DNA of 64,000 bases from Methylacidimicrobium tartarophylax. GTDB lineage: Bacteria > Verrucomicrobiota > Verrucomicrobiia > Methylacidiphilales > Methylacidiphilaceae. Location of the stretch: contig NZ_CABFVA020000065.1 in assembly GCF_902143375.2 (NCBI RefSeq), positions 62,001 through 126,000 on the forward strand, in the 5' to 3' direction. The notes under the pieces are model-generated. The model had not been told where the DNA came from and searched no databases. It saw only the letters and a list, made by a program, of their open reading frames with translations. The position numbers and the translations under genes were made by a program. Every line of letters begins with the position of its first letter. Within the stretch, counting starts at the first letter, position 1. Below, one piece after another: positions 5,060-55,909 of the stretch.

Positions 5060-5831
5060 GCTTACGGGAATTTCACGCTGCATGTCCCAGCATGGGCGGC
5101 AGATTGATGAATTCATGGAAGCGATCCTCTGGTTCTCGCTCATTCTTTTCGCGATCTGGTTCAGCTTTTTCGTCTATGCCCTCTATCGGTTCCGGGCGGA
5201 CAAGAGCCCGAAGGCCAGCTACGAGGGGCTCAAGGCGGATTGGCCCAAGCATTTGGAGTGGAGCATCGTTTTTGTGGAAATGGTGCTCCTCTTCGGGTTT
5301 TCGGTGCCGCTTTGGGGAAACCGGGTGCTTGATCCTCCTGGCCCGGGAGAAGCCGTGACGCTGGAAGCGGTCGCGCAGCAATTCGGCTGGATCTTCCACT
5401 ACCCGGGACCGGATGGCAGGTTGGGCCGCCGTGACATGCGCTTGGCGGACGGGATGAATCCGATCGGCCTCGACAAGACCGACCCGGCTTCCAAGGATGA
5501 CATCATCACGATGAACGAGATGCACGTGCCCGTCGGCAAACCCGTCTTAATTTATCTGGGGTCCCGGGACGTCGTTCATAATTACTACGTCATTCAGATG
5601 CGCATTCAGCGTGACGCAGTTCCCGGCCTGACCATTCCGGTCTGGTTCACGCCGACGCACACGGGCCGTTTCGAAATCGCCTGCGGCCAACTTTGCGGGG
5701 TCGGCCATTTTGCGATGAAAGGATTTCTCGTTGTCGATACCCAGAGCGACTACGAGGCTTGGCTCAAGGATATGAGTCAGCTTTCGCAGGTCGCACCACC
5801 GACCGGCGAGAAGGTCATCGCGCGGCAGTAA
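5040..5831 (+). CDS. ctaC: cytochrome c oxidase subunit II
   Basis: The 263-residue electron-entry subunit. It has two N-terminal membrane helices (about residues 26-48 and 75-98) and a periplasmic cupredoxin domain. The CuA ligands are complete: a His in HNYY near residue 180 and the motif CGQLCGVGHFAM near 215-226. There is no fused cytochrome c domain, so a separate cytochrome must donate electrons, perhaps the protein encoded at 293-940. The GTG start at 5040 has a GGGAGGG site; an ATG at 5082 is the alternative. The TAA stop coincides with the left edge of a palindromic repeat. Confidence 0.93.
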   Translation: MFALLLELTGISRCMSQHGRQIDEFMEAILWFSLILFAIWFSFFVYALYRFRADKSPKASYEGLKADWPKHLEWSIVFVEMVLLFGFSVPLWGNRVLDPPGPGEAVTLEAVAQQFGWIFHYPGPDGRLGRRDMRLADGMNPIGLDKTDPASKDDIITMNEMHVPVGKPVLIYLGSRDVVHNYYVIQMRIQRDAVPGLTIPVWFTPTHTGRFEIACGQLCGVGHFAMKGFLVVDTQSDYEAWLKDMSQLSQVAPPTGEKVIARQ

Positions 5832-6029
5832 CGTCTGCCTGTCTCAGAAGCGTTCTCCTACGGCTTACGAAGGGGAGTCGTCTGCTTCGTTGAGAAGACT
5901 TGGGTGTTTGGTCCTCGTTCGTGGGATGTCGTCATACCACTCCGGGGGAAAACCTGCGCCCCTTCTTGCATCCATGGCCATCCGCCCCGCGCCTCGAGTA
6001 CGTGGCCTTGTGGTGAGACAGGAAGGCTG
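5829..6029 (+). repeat. palindromic TA-bounded repeat, copy A (diverged)
   Basis: A diverged, about 200-bp member of the dispersed hairpin family. It starts at the TAA stop codon of ctaC. Its termini, CCTGTCTCA at 5838 and TGAGACAGG at 6014, are perfect inverted repeats but differ from the CCGCCATTTCTC ends of copies B, E and F. The core is recognisable (CTGCTTCGTTG, GTCGTCATACCACTCCGG, GAAAACCTGCGCC). The right edge shares its TG (degenerate TA) with copy B, which follows head to tail. No protein gene is supported here. Confidence 0.8.
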
Positions 6030-6211
6030 GCCGCCATTTCTCACAAGCTTTCTCCTGCGGCTTGCACAATGGGTTTGTCTGCTTCGTTGGGCTTGGTTTT
6101 CCATCCTTGCAGTATGTCGTCATACCACTCCGGTGGAAAACCTGCGCCGCGCCTTGCATCCAAGCCCATTTGCGGCGCCTCGGCTACGACATTTGCGACA
6201 AATGGCGGCTA
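6028..6211 (+). repeat. palindromic TA-bounded repeat, copy B (reference copy)
   Basis: A 184-bp element with ends CCGCCATTTCTCACAA (6031) and, at 6208 on the other arm, CCGCCATTTGTCGCAA, matching at 14 of 16 positions. Nested inverted repeats continue inward: GGTTTTCCA with TGGAAAACC and GTATG with CATAC around a TCGT loop, so the whole unit can fold into one long hairpin. The bounding dinucleotides are TG and TA. The 156 bp after it, up to the convergent lipoprotein gene, hold a run of eight G but nothing else I can name. Confidence 0.9.
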
Positions 6212-16147: not shown

Positions 16148-16210
16148 CGGGGCGGGGGAAGGGAGTGCCATGGGGGAAGCCGAGGCAGGCGACCAAGAGC
16201 AACGAGAAGT

Positions 16211-16393
16211 TAGCCTGCATATCTCGCAAGCGTTCTCCTGCGGCTTGCGAAATGTACCTGTCTGCTTCGTTGGGACTTGGTTTTCCCTCTCGCAGTATGT
16301 CGTCATACAACTTCAGGGAAAACCTGCGCCCCGCCTTGCATCCAGACCCATTCGCCGCGCCTCGGGTACGAACTTTGTGAGATATGCAGGCTA
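16211..16393 (+). repeat. palindromic TA-bounded repeat, copy C
   Basis: A 183-bp element. Its ends are TAGCCTGCATATCTC and the exact reverse complement GAGATATGCAGGCTA, both including the TA boundary. The inner stem is GGTTTTCCC with GGGAAAACC, and the tip is GTATG-TCGT-CATAC. Compared with copy B, both arms have changed together. The right arm contains the recJ start codon (ATG at 16384), so the first three recJ codons are element sequence. Confidence 0.9.
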
Positions 16394-18111
16394 GTCCTAT
16401 CTGGGAGATCGATTCTCCTGGGGAAGAAGCCGAAACCCTCGGACGGGAACTCGGCGTCTCTCCCTTGCTCGGGGGGCTTCTCGTGGAGCGAGGACATCGC
16501 GATCCGGAGGAGGCCTCCCGCTTCCTCAACCCCAAGCTGTCCGCACTGGAAGATCCTTTTCAGTTGAGCGGCTTGCGGCAGGCGGCCGAGCGGTTGCGGC
16601 AGGCCATTGTCGAAAGGCAGCGGATTCTGGTTTACGGCGATTACGACGTCGACGGAGTAAGCTCCACGGCTCTTTTGGTCCGAGCCCTCCGGTTGCTCGG
16701 GGCCTCGGCGTCGGCGTTCATTCCTGAGCGGGCATCGGAGGGCTACGGGCTCACTCGGAAGGGCCTGGAGCGGGCGTTCCGTCTTTTCTGCGAGGAGAGA
16801 GGGAATCATGACCCCGGGCAGAAACAGCTGCCCGATCTCGTGGTGGCCGTCGACTGCGGCACGACCTCGATCGAGGAGTTGTCTTGGCTCGCGGAGAAGG
16901 GCGTAGAGGCCATTGTCGTGGACCACCATCGGCCCGCCGGCTGCTGGCCACCGGCTTGCGCGATCCTCAACCCTCACCGGGACGGCCGGGGCAGCCATTT
17001 TGCGAGCGCGGGTCTTGTTTTTAAGCTGCTCCACGGGCTCCTCAAGCTGGAACCGGCCTATCGCGAGCGGCTGCGGCTACGGGAGGAACTGGATCTGGTT
17101 GCCCTGGGAACCATTGCCGATATCGTCCCGTTGACCGGTGACAATCGGATTTTCGTCGCCCGAGGCCTGGAGCAACTCGGCCGCCGCCGGTTGCCCGGTT
17201 TACGGGCACTGGCGAGTGTTTCGAAGATGGGCGAGAAGCCGACAGTGGAGGATGTCGCTTTTCGGCTTGCCCCTCGGCTCAATGCGAGCGGGAGGCTCGA
17301 CGACGCGATGGAATCGGTGCGCCTCCTTCTGACCGACTCGCCCACCGAAGCGGAGCAGGGCGCCCTTTCGTTGCATCGGAAGAACCTGCAACGACGGCTC
17401 GTCGAGCGGGAGATGCTCGAGGACGCTCTCGGTACCTTGGAGAAAGAGCCTGCGGTTTTCACCGGCGGGGCGATCGTGGTCGGAAAGAGGGGGTGGCATG
17501 CGGGAGTGGTAGGAATCGTGGCCTCGCGTCTCTTGCGCCGGTTTCACCGGCTGGTCGCCGTCGTCGCCTTTGATGAACGGGGAGAAGGGAAGGGGAGCGC
17601 ACGTGGGATTCCCGGGATGTCGATCGTGGAGGGGTTGCGGGCCAGTGCCGCTCACCTGGAGAAATTTGGCGGACACGATCTGGCGGCGGGCTTTTCCCTT
17701 CGAGAGGAAAACCTGTCTGCGTTTCGTGCGAGCTTGGTACAATGGGCGAGCCGCGCAGGCTCGCCGGAGATCTTCCGTAAACGGCTCAGAATCGCCGGGG
17801 AGCTTCCGCTCTCCGCGGCGGGCCTCCCGCTCTACGAGGAGTTGGAGCGGCTGGCCCCCTTCGGGGCGGGGAATGCCCGGCCGCTCTTCGCCTTTCCCAG
17901 CCTTTTCTTAGAGGGGGTGCCCATTCAAGCACGAGGGTGCACTCGGATCTCTCTTCGTTCCGGCGATGCCCGGCGCGAGGCCTTCGGGTTCGACCTCCCG
18001 GTGAACGGCGTGATCGCAGGCCGCTTTCAAATTGCGGGCCACCTCGACTGGGACTCGCTGGGCAAGCGGGTGCGGGTGCGGATCGTCGATTGGAGAGCGG
18101 AACAGGGTTAA
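16384..18111 (+). CDS. recJ: single-stranded-DNA exonuclease RecJ
   Basis: A 575-residue 5'-3' ssDNA exonuclease used in recombination and mismatch repair. DHH-family motifs are visible: VYGDYDVDGVSS near residue 81, VAVDCGTTS near 154, VDHHRP (DHH) near 179, and the DHHA1-type GGHDLAAGF near 430, followed by an OB fold. A TGA two codons upstream of the ATG limits the N-terminus, and the conserved SPIW region begins at residue 4, so translation must start at this ATG, which lies inside the right end of repeat copy C. No good ribosome site is seen. The TAA stop is the first codon of repeat copy D, so the gene is bracketed by two repeats. Confidence 0.92.
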   Translation: MQASPIWEIDSPGEEAETLGRELGVSPLLGGLLVERGHRDPEEASRFLNPKLSALEDPFQLSGLRQAAERLRQAIVERQRILVYGDYDVDGVSSTALLVRALRLLGASASAFIPERASEGYGLTRKGLERAFRLFCEERGNHDPGQKQLPDLVVAVDCGTTSIEELSWLAEKGVEAIVVDHHRPAGCWPPACAILNPHRDGRGSHFASAGLVFKLLHGLLKLEPAYRERLRLREELDLVALGTIADIVPLTGDNRIFVARGLEQLGRRRLPGLRALASVSKMGEKPTVEDVAFRLAPRLNASGRLDDAMESVRLLLTDSPTEAEQGALSLHRKNLQRRLVEREMLEDALGTLEKEPAVFTGGAIVVGKRGWHAGVVGIVASRLLRRFHRLVAVVAFDERGEGKGSARGIPGMSIVEGLRASAAHLEKFGGHDLAAGFSLREENLSAFRASLVQWASRAGSPEIFRKRLRIAGELPLSAAGLPLYEELERLAPFGAGNARPLFAFPSLFLEGVPIQARGCTRISLRSGDARREAFGFDLPVNGVIAGRFQIAGHLDWDSLGKRVRVRIVDWRAEQG

Positions 18112-18293
18112 CCGCTATTTCACACAAGCTTTCTCCTACGGCTTGCAAAATGGGCTTGTCTGCTTCGTTGGACTTGGTTTTCCATCCTTGGCAGTATGTC
18201 CTCATACAGCTCCGGTGGAAAACCGGCGCCGCGCCTCGCATCCAAGCCCATTTGCGGCGCCTCGGCTACGAAATTGGTGAGAAATGGCGGCTG
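18109..18293 (+). repeat. palindromic TA-bounded repeat, copy D
   Basis: A 185-bp element beginning at the TAA stop of recJ. The ends are TAACCGCTATTTCACACAA and TTGGTGAGAAATGGCGGC, imperfect inverted repeats. The inner stem GGTTTTCCA/TGGAAAACC and the tip GTATG-TCCT-CATAC are intact, and AAATGGGCTTG pairs with CAAGCCCATTT over 11 bp apart from one mismatch in the left arm. The right boundary is TG instead of TA. The remaining 83 bp before mqnA show no clear signal. Confidence 0.9.
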
Positions 18294-20196: not shown

Positions 20197-20202
20197 AGGG
20201 AC

Positions 20203-20245
20203 CATTTTGCAAGCCGTGGGAGAAAGCTTGTGAGAAATGGCGGTT
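20203..20245 (-). repeat. fragment of the palindromic repeat upstream of carB
   Basis: This stretch matches the last ~43 bp of copy E (GCAAGCCG, GGAGAAAGCTTGTGAG, AAATGGCGGTTA) with a TA boundary. The other half of the element is absent. It ends five bases before the carB start codon, so most of the short mqnC-carB spacer is element-derived. Confidence 0.75.
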
Positions 20246-20250
20246 AGACT

Positions 20251-23503: not shown

Positions 23504-24694
23504 GTGGCACGCCGGATCCCGGGGATCTCTCTCTCGGCTCTCCTGATTGGCGGTTACCTGGCCCTCGGACTTTACGTGGTCCTTCGCGGGTGGGCCGTCG
23601 TCCCTCCTTCCCCCTTCCCGCGGATCGGTTACCTCTGTCTCGCGGCCGCTTGTGTTTTCGGCTATCCCGCGGCACGGCGCTGGCAGGAGAGGAACCCCTC
23701 CCCGGTCGCGGATTGGGCTGTCCTCCTCTCCTCCCTCTGGATCCCTTCGGTGCTCTATCTTTTTCTCGGAATCTCCGCTTGGGACCTGCTGCAGCTCCTA
23801 CCGGGTGCGGCAAAGCTGGAGGAAAGCCTCCTTCCTCCCTGGGCTCCTCCGGTGGGCTTGATCGCTCTGGTCGTGCTCCTGCTCCTCCGAGGGACCGTCA
23901 ACGCGCGCCGGATCTTGGTCCAAGAGCTCGACCTTTTCCTCGATTCGTCCCCGCCTCCTTCTTCGTTTCTCCCTGGTCTGACGATCGCCGTCGCCGCCGA
24001 CCTCCATATTACCGGAACCTTTGGCGCAAGGAGACTCGCCCGCATCGCCAAGGCAATCCGGTCGACCTCGCCCGATCTCGTCCTGCTATCCGGAGATCTG
24101 GTCGATGCTTCCGCGCCCGTGCTGGAGAAGGCTGGCGTGGGGCCGCTCTTCCGCTCTCTTTCCGCTCCCTTGGGGGTCTTTGCGTGTCTGGGAAACCACG
24201 AGTACTATAGCGGTGCCGATGGGGCGGTTGCCTTTCTGGGCGAAAACGGGATTACCGTTCTGCGCGACCGGTGCGTGGAGGTCGGGGGCGTCCTCCGAAT
24301 CGCCGGCAGGGATGATCGAGCCAAAATGGTGCTGGGCGACGGTCGTCCACGCGAGCCGCTTCGTCGGCTCCTGGAAAAGAGCAATCCGCGCCTACCACTC
24401 TTGGTCCTAGACCATCGCCCCTCTGCGCTGGACGAAGCAGCCGATTGCGGCGCCGATCTCCTCGTCTGCGGCCATACCCATAACGGCCAGTTTTGGCCCA
24501 TCAACCATATCGTCTCCCGGCTCTACCCGCTTGCCTACGGCTATGCGCGCCGGGGGAAGACCCACATCGTCGTCACTCGCGGCGCCGGCACCTGGGGTCC
24601 TCCGATCCGCATTGGGCAGTGCTCGGAAATCTTCCGAATCACCCTTCACCTTGCTTCCGGGTCCATTTCGCCGGCTGCAGAAGAACGCTTGTGA
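23504..24694 (+). CDS. membrane-anchored metallophosphoesterase
   Basis: A 396-residue protein with four N-terminal membrane helices (first ~130 residues) followed by a calcineurin-type phosphoesterase domain. Metal-binding motifs run in order: ADLHITG near residue 166, LSGDLVD near 197, CLGNHEYY near 228 and CGHTHNGQ near 325. It resembles YaeI/YkuE-type enzymes; the substrate is unknown, perhaps UDP-diacylglucosamine-like lipids or phosphodiesters. The GTG start has a GGAGGG site. The last ~11 residues (GSISPAAEERL) and the stop lie in a repeat fragment and overlap the convergent hisA by 49 bp. Confidence 0.85.
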   Translation: MARRIPGISLSALLIGGYLALGLYVVLRGWAVVPPSPFPRIGYLCLAAACVFGYPAARRWQERNPSPVADWAVLLSSLWIPSVLYLFLGISAWDLLQLLPGAAKLEESLLPPWAPPVGLIALVVLLLLRGTVNARRILVQELDLFLDSSPPPSSFLPGLTIAVAADLHITGTFGARRLARIAKAIRSTSPDLVLLSGDLVDASAPVLEKAGVGPLFRSLSAPLGVFACLGNHEYYSGADGAVAFLGENGITVLRDRCVEVGGVLRIAGRDDRAKMVLGDGRPREPLRRLLEKSNPRLPLLVLDHRPSALDEAADCGADLLVCGHTHNGQFWPINHIVSRLYPLAYGYARRGKTHIVVTRGAGTWGPPIRIGQCSEIFRITLHLASGSISPAAEERL

Positions 24695-25437
24695 GACAGG
24701 CGGCTAAAAGACCCTTCTCCGCCGACCTCCGCCCGCCCATCGTGGAAGGAGACCGTCTTTTCGTAGATCGCGCGACCGAGGACCGCGCCGTAGAGCCGCG
24801 GGATCCGCTCCAGCGAGCGTAGATCTTCGGGCTTGCCGATCCCTCCGGAGGCAAAGATCGGGAGCGGGACGGTTTGGACCAGCTCCCGGGTTCTCTCCAG
24901 GTCCGGACCGGAGAGCATCCCATCGACCGAGACATCGGTGTAGAGAAGGAAACCGGCTCCCTGAGTCTGGGCGTGCCGGGCGGCATCGATCAGCTTCTTC
25001 CCCGTACCCCGCTCCCAGCCGGCGATCCGGACCTCCCCGTTACGGGCATCGAGGGCGACGACGATCCGCTCTGGTCCAACACGGGCGGCGAGCTTGGGAA
25101 GGAATTCGGGCTCTTCCCATGCGCGCGTTCCTATGACGACCCGGGAGGCTCCGCGTGCGAGGGCTTCTTCCACGGCTTCTTCGGTGCGGAGGCCTCCGCC
25201 GAGCTGGATGGGAATCCGGACTCGCTTTGCGATCGCCTCGACCCAGGGCAGAGAGGAAGAGGCGCCGGAGAATGCTCCCTCCAGGTCGACGATGTGCAGG
25301 CCGTCCGCCCCTTCCCTCTCCCAATGGAGGGCTGCCGCCACCGGATCGTCTGAATAGACGGTGGCGGACTCCCGTTTTCCTTGCCGGAGACGCACAACTT
25401 TGCCTCCGAGCAGGTCGATGGCGGCGAATAGTTTCAT
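24646..25437 (-). CDS. hisA: ProFAR isomerase HisA
   Basis: A 263-residue TIM-barrel isomerase of histidine synthesis converting ProFAR to PRFAR. The N-terminal MKLFAAIDLLGGKVVRLRQG holds the first catalytic Asp; YTDVSVDGMLSGPD holds the second; SGGIGKPEDL and GAVLGRAIYE complete the phosphate site. The protein is about 17 residues longer than usual: the tail after about residue 246 reads into a repeat fragment. It overlaps hisH by 4 bp and was probably translated with it. Confidence 0.93.
   Translation of the reverse strand: MKLFAAIDLLGGKVVRLRQGKRESATVYSDDPVAAALHWEREGADGLHIVDLEGAFSGASSSLPWVEAIAKRVRIPIQLGGGLRTEEAVEEALARGASRVVIGTRAWEEPEFLPKLAARVGPERIVVALDARNGEVRIAGWERGTGKKLIDAARHAQTQGAGFLLYTDVSVDGMLSGPDLERTRELVQTVPLPIFASGGIGKPEDLRSLERIPRLYGAVLGRAIYEKTVSFHDGRAEVGGEGSFSRLSHKRSSAAGEMDPEAR
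24660..24706 (-). repeat. repeat fragment coding on both strands
   Basis: The reverse complement of this 47-bp stretch, beginning TAGCCGCCTGTCTCACAAGC, matches the left ends of copies A and C (CCTGTCTCA as in A, AAGCGTTCT and GCGAAATG as in C). It encodes the C-terminal residues of the phosphoesterase on the plus strand and residues SRLSHKRSSAAG of HisA on the minus strand. The rest of the element is missing. Confidence 0.75.
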
Positions 25438-53557: not shown

Positions 53558-54106
53558 GTGATTGCGATCTTGATCGGAACGAATCGATTGGGAAGCCGGA
53601 CGAGGCTCGTTGGGGCCCAGTTGGTCCGTCTCTATCACGAACTGGGAGAGGAAGCTCGTCCGATCGACCTCGGACTCCTACCGATCGAGGTCGGCAGCCC
53701 GCGTGCTTACGCCGACAGGCCGGCGGAAGTGAGCCGGTTTGCCGCGCTTTTGGGAGAGGCACGGGGTATTGTCGTCGTTCTTCCGGAATACAATGGGAGC
53801 TTTCCGGGCATCCTGAAGCTCTTTCTGGATCTTTTGCCGCATCCCAGCCCTTTGGAAGGCAAGCCGATCTGCCTGGTGGGCGCGGCGAGCGGCCGCTTCG
53901 GCGGCCTGCGAGCCGTCGAGCAGATGCAGAATCATCTGCTCTACCGCAGATCCCATCCCTACCCCTATTCCGTTCTGCTTTCGGACGTCGAGATGCTGCT
54001 GGCAAAAACTGCGAGGATCGAAGATCCCGCGACGATCAAACGGCTGCGCGCGCAGGCGGAAGGATTTTTGGGCTTCGTAGCGAGCCTTGCCCCGGAAAAA
54101 GGTTAG
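53558..54106 (+). CDS. NADPH-dependent FMN reductase family protein
   Basis: A flavodoxin-fold protein of about 182 residues. The phosphate loop GTNRLGSRTR near the N-terminus and the flavin site LPEYNGSFPGILKLFLDLL are characteristic. The reading frame is open further upstream to 53411, overlapping the ald start, but conservation begins at VIAILIGTNR, so the GTG at 53558 is preferred. The TAG stop is the first three bases of repeat copy E. Possible substrates are quinones, chromate or azo compounds, as in relatives. Confidence 0.82.
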   Translation: MIAILIGTNRLGSRTRLVGAQLVRLYHELGEEARPIDLGLLPIEVGSPRAYADRPAEVSRFAALLGEARGIVVVLPEYNGSFPGILKLFLDLLPHPSPLEGKPICLVGAASGRFGGLRAVEQMQNHLLYRRSHPYPYSVLLSDVEMLLAKTARIEDPATIKRLRAQAEGFLGFVASLAPEKG

Positions 54107-54287
54107 CCGCCATTTCTCGCAAATTTCGTAGCCGAGGCGCCGCAAATGGGCTTGGATGCGAGACGTGGCGCAGGTTTTCCCCCGGAGTTGTATGACGACA
54201 TACTGCGAGGAGGGAGAACCAAGCCCAACGAAGCAGGCAAGCCCGTTGTGCAAGCCGCAGGAGAAAGCTTGTGAGAAATGGCGGCTA
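54104..54287 (-). repeat. palindromic TA-bounded repeat, copy E
   Basis: A 184-bp element in inverted orientation. The termini TAGCCGCCATTTCTCGCAA and TTGTGAGAAATGGCGGCTA match at 18 of 19 positions as inverted repeats. The terminal TAG on each strand is the stop codon of a different gene: the flavin reductase on the plus strand (54104-54106) and glgA on the minus strand (54287-54285). The inner stem GGTTTTCCC/GGGAGAACC has one mismatch, and the tip is GTATG-ACGA-CATAC. Confidence 0.92.
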
Positions 54288-55725: not shown

Positions 55726-55909
55726 TAACCGCCATTTCCCACAAGCTTTCTCCTGCGGCTTGCACAATGGGCTTGTCTGCTTTGTTGGGCTTGGTTTTCC
55801 ATCCTTGCAGTATGTCCTCATACAGCCCCGGTGGAAAACCGGCGCCGCGCCTCGCATCCAAACCCATTTGCGGCGCCTCGGCCACGAAATTTGTGCGAAA
55901 TGGCGGTTA
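55726..55909 (+). repeat. palindromic TA-bounded repeat, copy F
   Basis: A 184-bp element with ends TAACCGCCATTTCCCACAA and TTGTGCGAAATGGCGGTTA (18 of 19 paired). The boundary is TAA on both arms, whereas copies C and E have TAG on both arms. The inner stem GGTTTTCCA/TGGAAAACC and tip GTATG-TCCT-CATAC are intact. The next 232 bp up to phoH are gene-free; an imperfect TTGCAC and TAGGCT pair (55961 and 55984) is the only promoter-like signal I see there. Confidence 0.92.

Follow-up and report, generated by a model that had tools for sequence, protein, structure and literature searches.

The DNA analysed here, a stretch of 64,000 nucleotides forming part of contig G000:C65 (hereafter the window), carries several palindromic repeats, and the one at 16211–16393 raises the question of why the two arms of its stem seem to change together from copy to copy. 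An earlier note on this DNA had argued from such paired changes that the hairpin itself is maintained, by selection on structure or by arm-to-arm conversion. The arm strings it quoted are all present in the sequence, i.e. TAGCCTGCATATCTC / GAGATATGCAGGCTA in copy C, CCTGTCTCA / TGAGACAGG in copy A and TAGCCGCCATTTCTC / GAGAAATGGCGGCTA in copy E, as are the ends given for copy F (Table 1), and the inner pair is indeed CCA/TGG in copies B, D and F and CCC/GGG in C; copy E, left unmentioned in this respect, likewise has CCC/GGG. The chosen examples match, whereas copies B (ends TGG..CTA) and D (ends TAA..CTG, with one T.G and one A-A mismatch in the outer stem) do not.

The repeat is a non-autonomous MITE found in bacteria of the family Methylacidiphilaceae. 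It is one copy of a dispersed palindrome of 183–185 nt, short, multicopy and devoid of a transposase gene, with terminal inverted repeats (TIRs) of about 16 nt. The whole region is predicted to fold into one long hairpin, very stable on either strand (−88.3 kcal/mol for copy C against a shuffle mean of −51.5; z = −10.6; none of 200 shuffles equally stable). A covariance model built from 32 copies gave at least 95 matches in the genome that contains the window (G000, 2.33 Mb), at least 68 in the complete genome G006 and at least 37 in G003, counts that take in partial and opposite-strand matches; matches were weak in G001, G002 and G005 (at least 6 each) and in G004 (at least 16), and there were none among those listed for G007–G012, the six genomes from the other two genera of the family. 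The large differences within the arms correspond to two subfamilies and a burst of copies in G006. The window itself holds six full-length or near-full-length copies (A–F) and two half copies (Table 1). Isolated left-arm halves of 45 nt, such as these two and one in G003 (C135, near 5585–5741), could form a small hairpin of their own; at the place of the half copy at 20202–20246, G002 and G004 carry unrelated sequence. Several half matches lie at contig ends, as if the draft assembly breaks within copies, and several G000 copies are of a shorter form that keeps subfamily-1 arms and seems to be a class with an internal deletion.

Table 1. Coordinates of repeat copies, the recJ-like frame and the IS1380-family element (window positions unless a contig or locus is named).
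Feature	Position	Strand	Description
Copy A	5831–6029	+	degenerate, near-full-length, subfamily-1 arms
Copy B	6028–6211	+	full length, subfamily 2, abuts copy A
Copy C	16211–16393	+	full-length MITE, subfamily 1, TIR CCTGCATATCTC; core 16214–16390; flanking 4-mers TTAG (16210–16213) and CTAG (16391–16394)
recJ-like frame	16384–18111	+	as now read, 575 aa
Copy D	18109–18293	+	full length, subfamily 2
Half copy	20202–20246	−	45 nt, left arm only
Half copy	24663–24707	−	45 nt, left arm only, diverged
Copy E	54104–54287	−	full length, subfamily 2, CCC/GGG inner pair
Copy F	55726–55909	+	full length, subfamily 2, TAA..TTA ends
Short-form copies	G000:C26:45867–45989, C66:20695–20818, C31:11774–11897, C86:42905–43028, C14:33688–33811, others		123–124 nt
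IS1380-family IS	L189:794–2503		1710 bp, ends CCGCCATATCTCACC / CGGCCATTTCTCACC, CTAG duplicated

The limits of the element are clearest in G006, where the 4-mer to the left equals that to the right in 34 of the 48 aligned copies (shuffle mean 13.8; best of 2000 shuffles, 21). These flanking repeats are 4 bp long, direct and of the YTAR type, the duplicated 4-mers being CTAG, TTAA, TTAG, CTAA, CTAT, TTGA and TGAA, and the cases that are not palindromic on both sides (n = 21) include eight direct repeats and no inverted ones. The three outermost bases that had been taken as stem are therefore target duplication: the matching TAA or TAG boundary reported by the note is present, but it reflects a 4-bp duplication of a palindromic YTAR target, as seen in G006, and not the stem. 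Stop codons of open frames of at least 100 codons host 36 of 51 G006 copies, against 302 of 571 control YTAR sites, and in those copies the duplicated target restores the stop codon. The enrichment is modest and can be accounted for by selection against insertions that disrupt genes.

In G000 the duplication is weak, with an exact 4-bp direct repeat in 3 of 35 copies and, in another count, in 6 of 48 against 3.8 in shuffles. This fits the waning of MITE direct repeats with time, as described in the available part of PMC10969869. In 41 of the 48 G000 copies (shuffle mean 28.3), however, the bases immediately next to the TIR on the two sides can pair with each other. This would not be expected if a duplication had simply decayed; the faded repeat beside a kept complementary pair may come from the age of the copies, from correction between arms, or from an earlier mobiliser whose ends were slightly longer. 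A longer or shifted duplication in G000 and G003 was also considered in offset scans; one offset gave an excess among 20 subfamily-2 copies, but this was set aside as the product of a few copies that included an orthologous pair. Among subfamily-1 copies of G000 and G003, the TA beside the element is better kept on the left than on the right (A in 31 of 37 against 17 of 37).

Unpaired TIR matches in G006 led to insertion sequences of the IS1380 family, which occur in the same genomes as the MITE, have ends nearly identical to its own (CSGCCATWTCTCAC) and duplicate the same targets. The 449-aa protein of the G006 element in Table 1 (P0001) matches the IS1380 transposase model NF033539 (393.7 bits against a cutoff of 180, NCBIfam) and DDE_Tnp_1_4 (504.3 against 34.7, Pfam), and further copies have the same ends and duplicate CTAG, CTAA, TTAG or ATAG. 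The two kinds of element also meet physically: at two G006 loci (L203 and L209) an IS lies directly beside a MITE with one CTAG common to both, and at L207 in G000 a MITE has inserted in, and split, a decayed IS1380 copy. IS1380 protein matches were found in all seven genomes of the genus, including a 449-residue match without a stop in G003, and the sole full-length copy of G000 is frameshifted near codon 53 in this assembly. G001 and G005 have IS1380 and few MITEs, so carrying the IS is not by itself enough to bring in the MITE. In G005, four copies (L200, L205, L211 and L215) match residues 1–355 or 1–356 only, the rest of each gene lying kilobases away, as if all derived from one interrupted copy. 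IS607/TnpB and IS1182, both present at L195, were rejected as mobilisers as the IS1380 ends fit far better; this locus (G006:C1:1578500–1583500) brings together an IS607 tnpA, an IS1182 insertion and a TnpB-like gene that is truncated by, and fused to the end of, a MITE half.

We give a probability of roughly 0.8 to the reading, drawn from comparison of sequences, that the MITE was moved by IS1380 and that its arms match through palindromic targets and matched donors and then decay independently. An IS1380-type DDE transposase would bind the TCTCACMA-type ends, cut the MITE out or copy it, and join it to CTAG- or TTAA-like sites. Covariation of the arms could then have three causes: the outermost three bases would belong to the duplicated target, whose preferred sequence is a palindrome; new copies would take both arms from few donors, with donors of different times having different, internally matched ends (CCTGCATG, CCTGCCTG, CCGCCATT and CGGCCATT); and recombination between copies may shift inner segments as a block, as from CCA/TGG to CCC/GGG. 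After insertion the arms would decay independently, with nothing visible preserving the hairpin.

The fate of resident copies was followed in a MAFFT alignment of the copies 175–192 nt long, 90 of the 109 taken from the better-scoring of the listed matches. By threshold, 41 of the 48 aligned G006 copies form the burst, 40 of which were set aside to leave a non-burst set of 50. Of the 67 changes that the 41 young copies show at paired columns, every one is confined to one side, with no compensation, and 47 break the pair. Counted as 62 distinct events, 48 fall on 130 paired columns and 14 on 48 unpaired ones, and 13 of the 48 keep pairing against 12.7 expected (26.5%). Both the event rate and the pair-breaking fraction equal the neutral expectation, which argues that the hairpin is not preserved in resident copies, contrary to the maintenance that had been proposed; nor do whole-arm shuffles show any own-arm excess in the burst (642 observed, 642.1 expected). 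In G006 the arms diverge independently and few masters explain most of the differences, largely the outcome that the note had itself named as telling against its claim.

These results weigh against the idea that selection on an RNA hairpin, in a regulatory or processed transcript, keeps the arms of resident copies complementary. Such selection would suit the very stable fold predicted on either strand and the genuine both-side changes, yet the neutral pattern at paired columns comes close to refuting it for G006. The note had expected significantly covarying stem pairs among aligned copies; a tree-based test with a simulated tree null brought no stem pair of the 50 non-burst copies below E = 1, i.e. 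no compensatory change beyond phylogenetic expectation, and the top covarying columns are mostly subfamily markers and mostly not stem pairs. Mismatches in these 50 rows are G.U in 28 cases and A.C in 35, so that no RNA strand is preferred, and the only Rfam family in the window is the tRNA. On the grounds of strand asymmetry, tree-based covariation and neutral pair-breaking in the burst, we rejected RNA-level selection on resident copies and regard it as very unlikely to be the source of the matching. Even less credit goes to a REP/REPIN or IS200/IS605-like element, moved as a single-strand hairpin by a Y1 (RAYT) transposase. The hairpins, the isolated half copies, the TAG at the left end and the weak direct repeats of G000 all recall such elements, but the clear 4-bp direct duplication in G006 and the terminal identity with a DDE-type IS1380 element make this origin extremely improbable.

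That both arms change together is nevertheless real in part, as own arms beat whole-arm shuffles within subfamilies. The 32 copies show many both-side changes at outer pairs 3–189 to 11–181, and, ignoring relatedness, own arms match in 361 of 448 cells in subfamily 1 against 343.7 when shuffled (none of 3000 shuffles as high) and in 214 of 240 in the 15 G000 and G003 rows of subfamily 2 against 207.7 (17 of 3000). At pair 8/175 of subfamily 1 (28 rows), nine of ten rows changed on both sides are paired, against seven one-sided rows (Fisher p = 0.008), and branches with both-side changes number 22 over 18 pairs where about 9.8 are expected on the tree, 17 of them being terminal and six concerning the target-duplication pair. 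Among G000 copies with the TGC-type arm, 6 of 27, copy C included, have identical 8-base arm words (2.9 expected), and the CATATC word of copy C occurs elsewhere with an unmatched partner arm. Arm-to-arm correction, in which the nascent hairpin strand changes template during replication and rewrites one arm from the other, so that the arms are re-matched from time to time, mostly in long-lived donors, would account for this excess in old copies, for the complementary inner pair of the target duplication kept in G000 despite the faded direct repeat, and for matched arms peculiar to a single copy, as in G000:C4:52777 (CCAGC/GCTGG, where position 19 also matches); PMC8604942 describes such a mechanism for other inverted repeats. 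Against it, no event is seen in the 41 young copies, the own-arm excess is confined to the outer nine pairs (3–11) and absent at pairs 12–18, left-only changes at pair 15 stay uncorrected in 12 of 28 subfamily-1 rows, and the orthologous copies G000:C19:4180 and G003:C282:8163 have kept mismatched arms in both species since their split. The conversion proposed by the note thus retains some ground in the covariation beyond subfamily of older copies, and possibly in donors, and loses it in a mismatched copy that persisted in two species. That template switching across the hairpin during replication keeps the donors' ends matched is, in our estimate, a rather doubtful proposition; if it were true, TIR sequences would drift in concert and new end types would arise as matched pairs, and both the coupling of the outer pairs and the extension of complementarity by one base into the G000 and G003 target duplication would be accounted for. 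The two ends of the IS1380 element at L189 differ from each other at positions 2 and 8, so that matched ends are not clearly demanded by the transposase. Under the favoured reading of transposition from matched donors, arm coupling looks like a property of donors and not of resident copies, and the coupling in older copies fits inheritance from such donors. Covarying arms can therefore arise without structural selection, from a palindromic target duplication and matched-donor inheritance, which calls for caution in structured-RNA calls from dispersed palindromic repeats.

Insertion sites were compared across the genus. The close relative G003 lacks copy C at the orthologous site, with a 6-nt gap in its place between flanks that are 93–98% identical, and the other five genomes of the genus lack it as well; the gap fits loss of the element together with one repeat, although taken alone it fits a 2-bp as well as a 4-bp palindromic duplication. 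Copy D is missing from G001, G002, G004, G005 and G006, with an empty site in G002 and others, so that C and D are both polymorphic insertions, and copy A has a counterpart at the orthologous place in G003, copy B being missing from that locus. Copy C split a frame that we take to be recJ-like, about 14 codons from its old beginning, where G003 reads MGEAEPGDDDQREARTIWEIDSP. Read from the old start (ATG 16170), the frame now runs into a TAG at the element's right edge. Reading from another ATG, which lies at 16384 within the right arm, restores the recJ-like frame for 575 codons, and its stop is the TAA (18109–18111) of the left duplication TTAA of copy D. Over window positions 16170–18111, the gene thus appears, as read from the sequence, to take its start codon from one MITE and its stop codon from the target duplication flanking another.

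A high-copy MITE burst is now paired with a likely IS1380 mobiliser in a family of verrucomicrobial methanotrophs, a combination for which a search of open-licence papers found no report; likewise, the available parts of PMC4133298, PMC10813416, PMC10969869, PMC4596501, PMC2229807, PMC6688271, PMC3281130, PMC3542288 and PMC8604942 contain no description of a MITE moved by IS1380. With the IS1380 family (NF033539; IS1247 in the accessible part of PMC3281130, whose Table 2 gives 16-bp inverted repeats and 5-bp repeats) the system has in common the transposase family, TIRs of about 16 nt and a short target duplication; unlike an IS1380 IS, the MITE lacks a transposase gene, and by inspection its core is unlike the IS beyond the ends. 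TIMEs, as presented in part of PMC4133298, are also non-autonomous, moved in trans and predicted to form a stable RNA fold, but derive from Tn3, with Tn3 ends, 5–6 bp repeats and usually a single copy. The bacterial MITEs ERIC, Correia/NEMIS and RUP, which have palindromic folds (PMC2229807 and PMC10969869), are like this MITE dispersed elements of 100–200 bp with TIRs, a long stem-loop and a target duplication that fades with time. The MITEs tabulated in PMC2229807 mostly have TA termini, whereas the MITE described here combines a 4-bp YTAR duplication with IS1380 ends.
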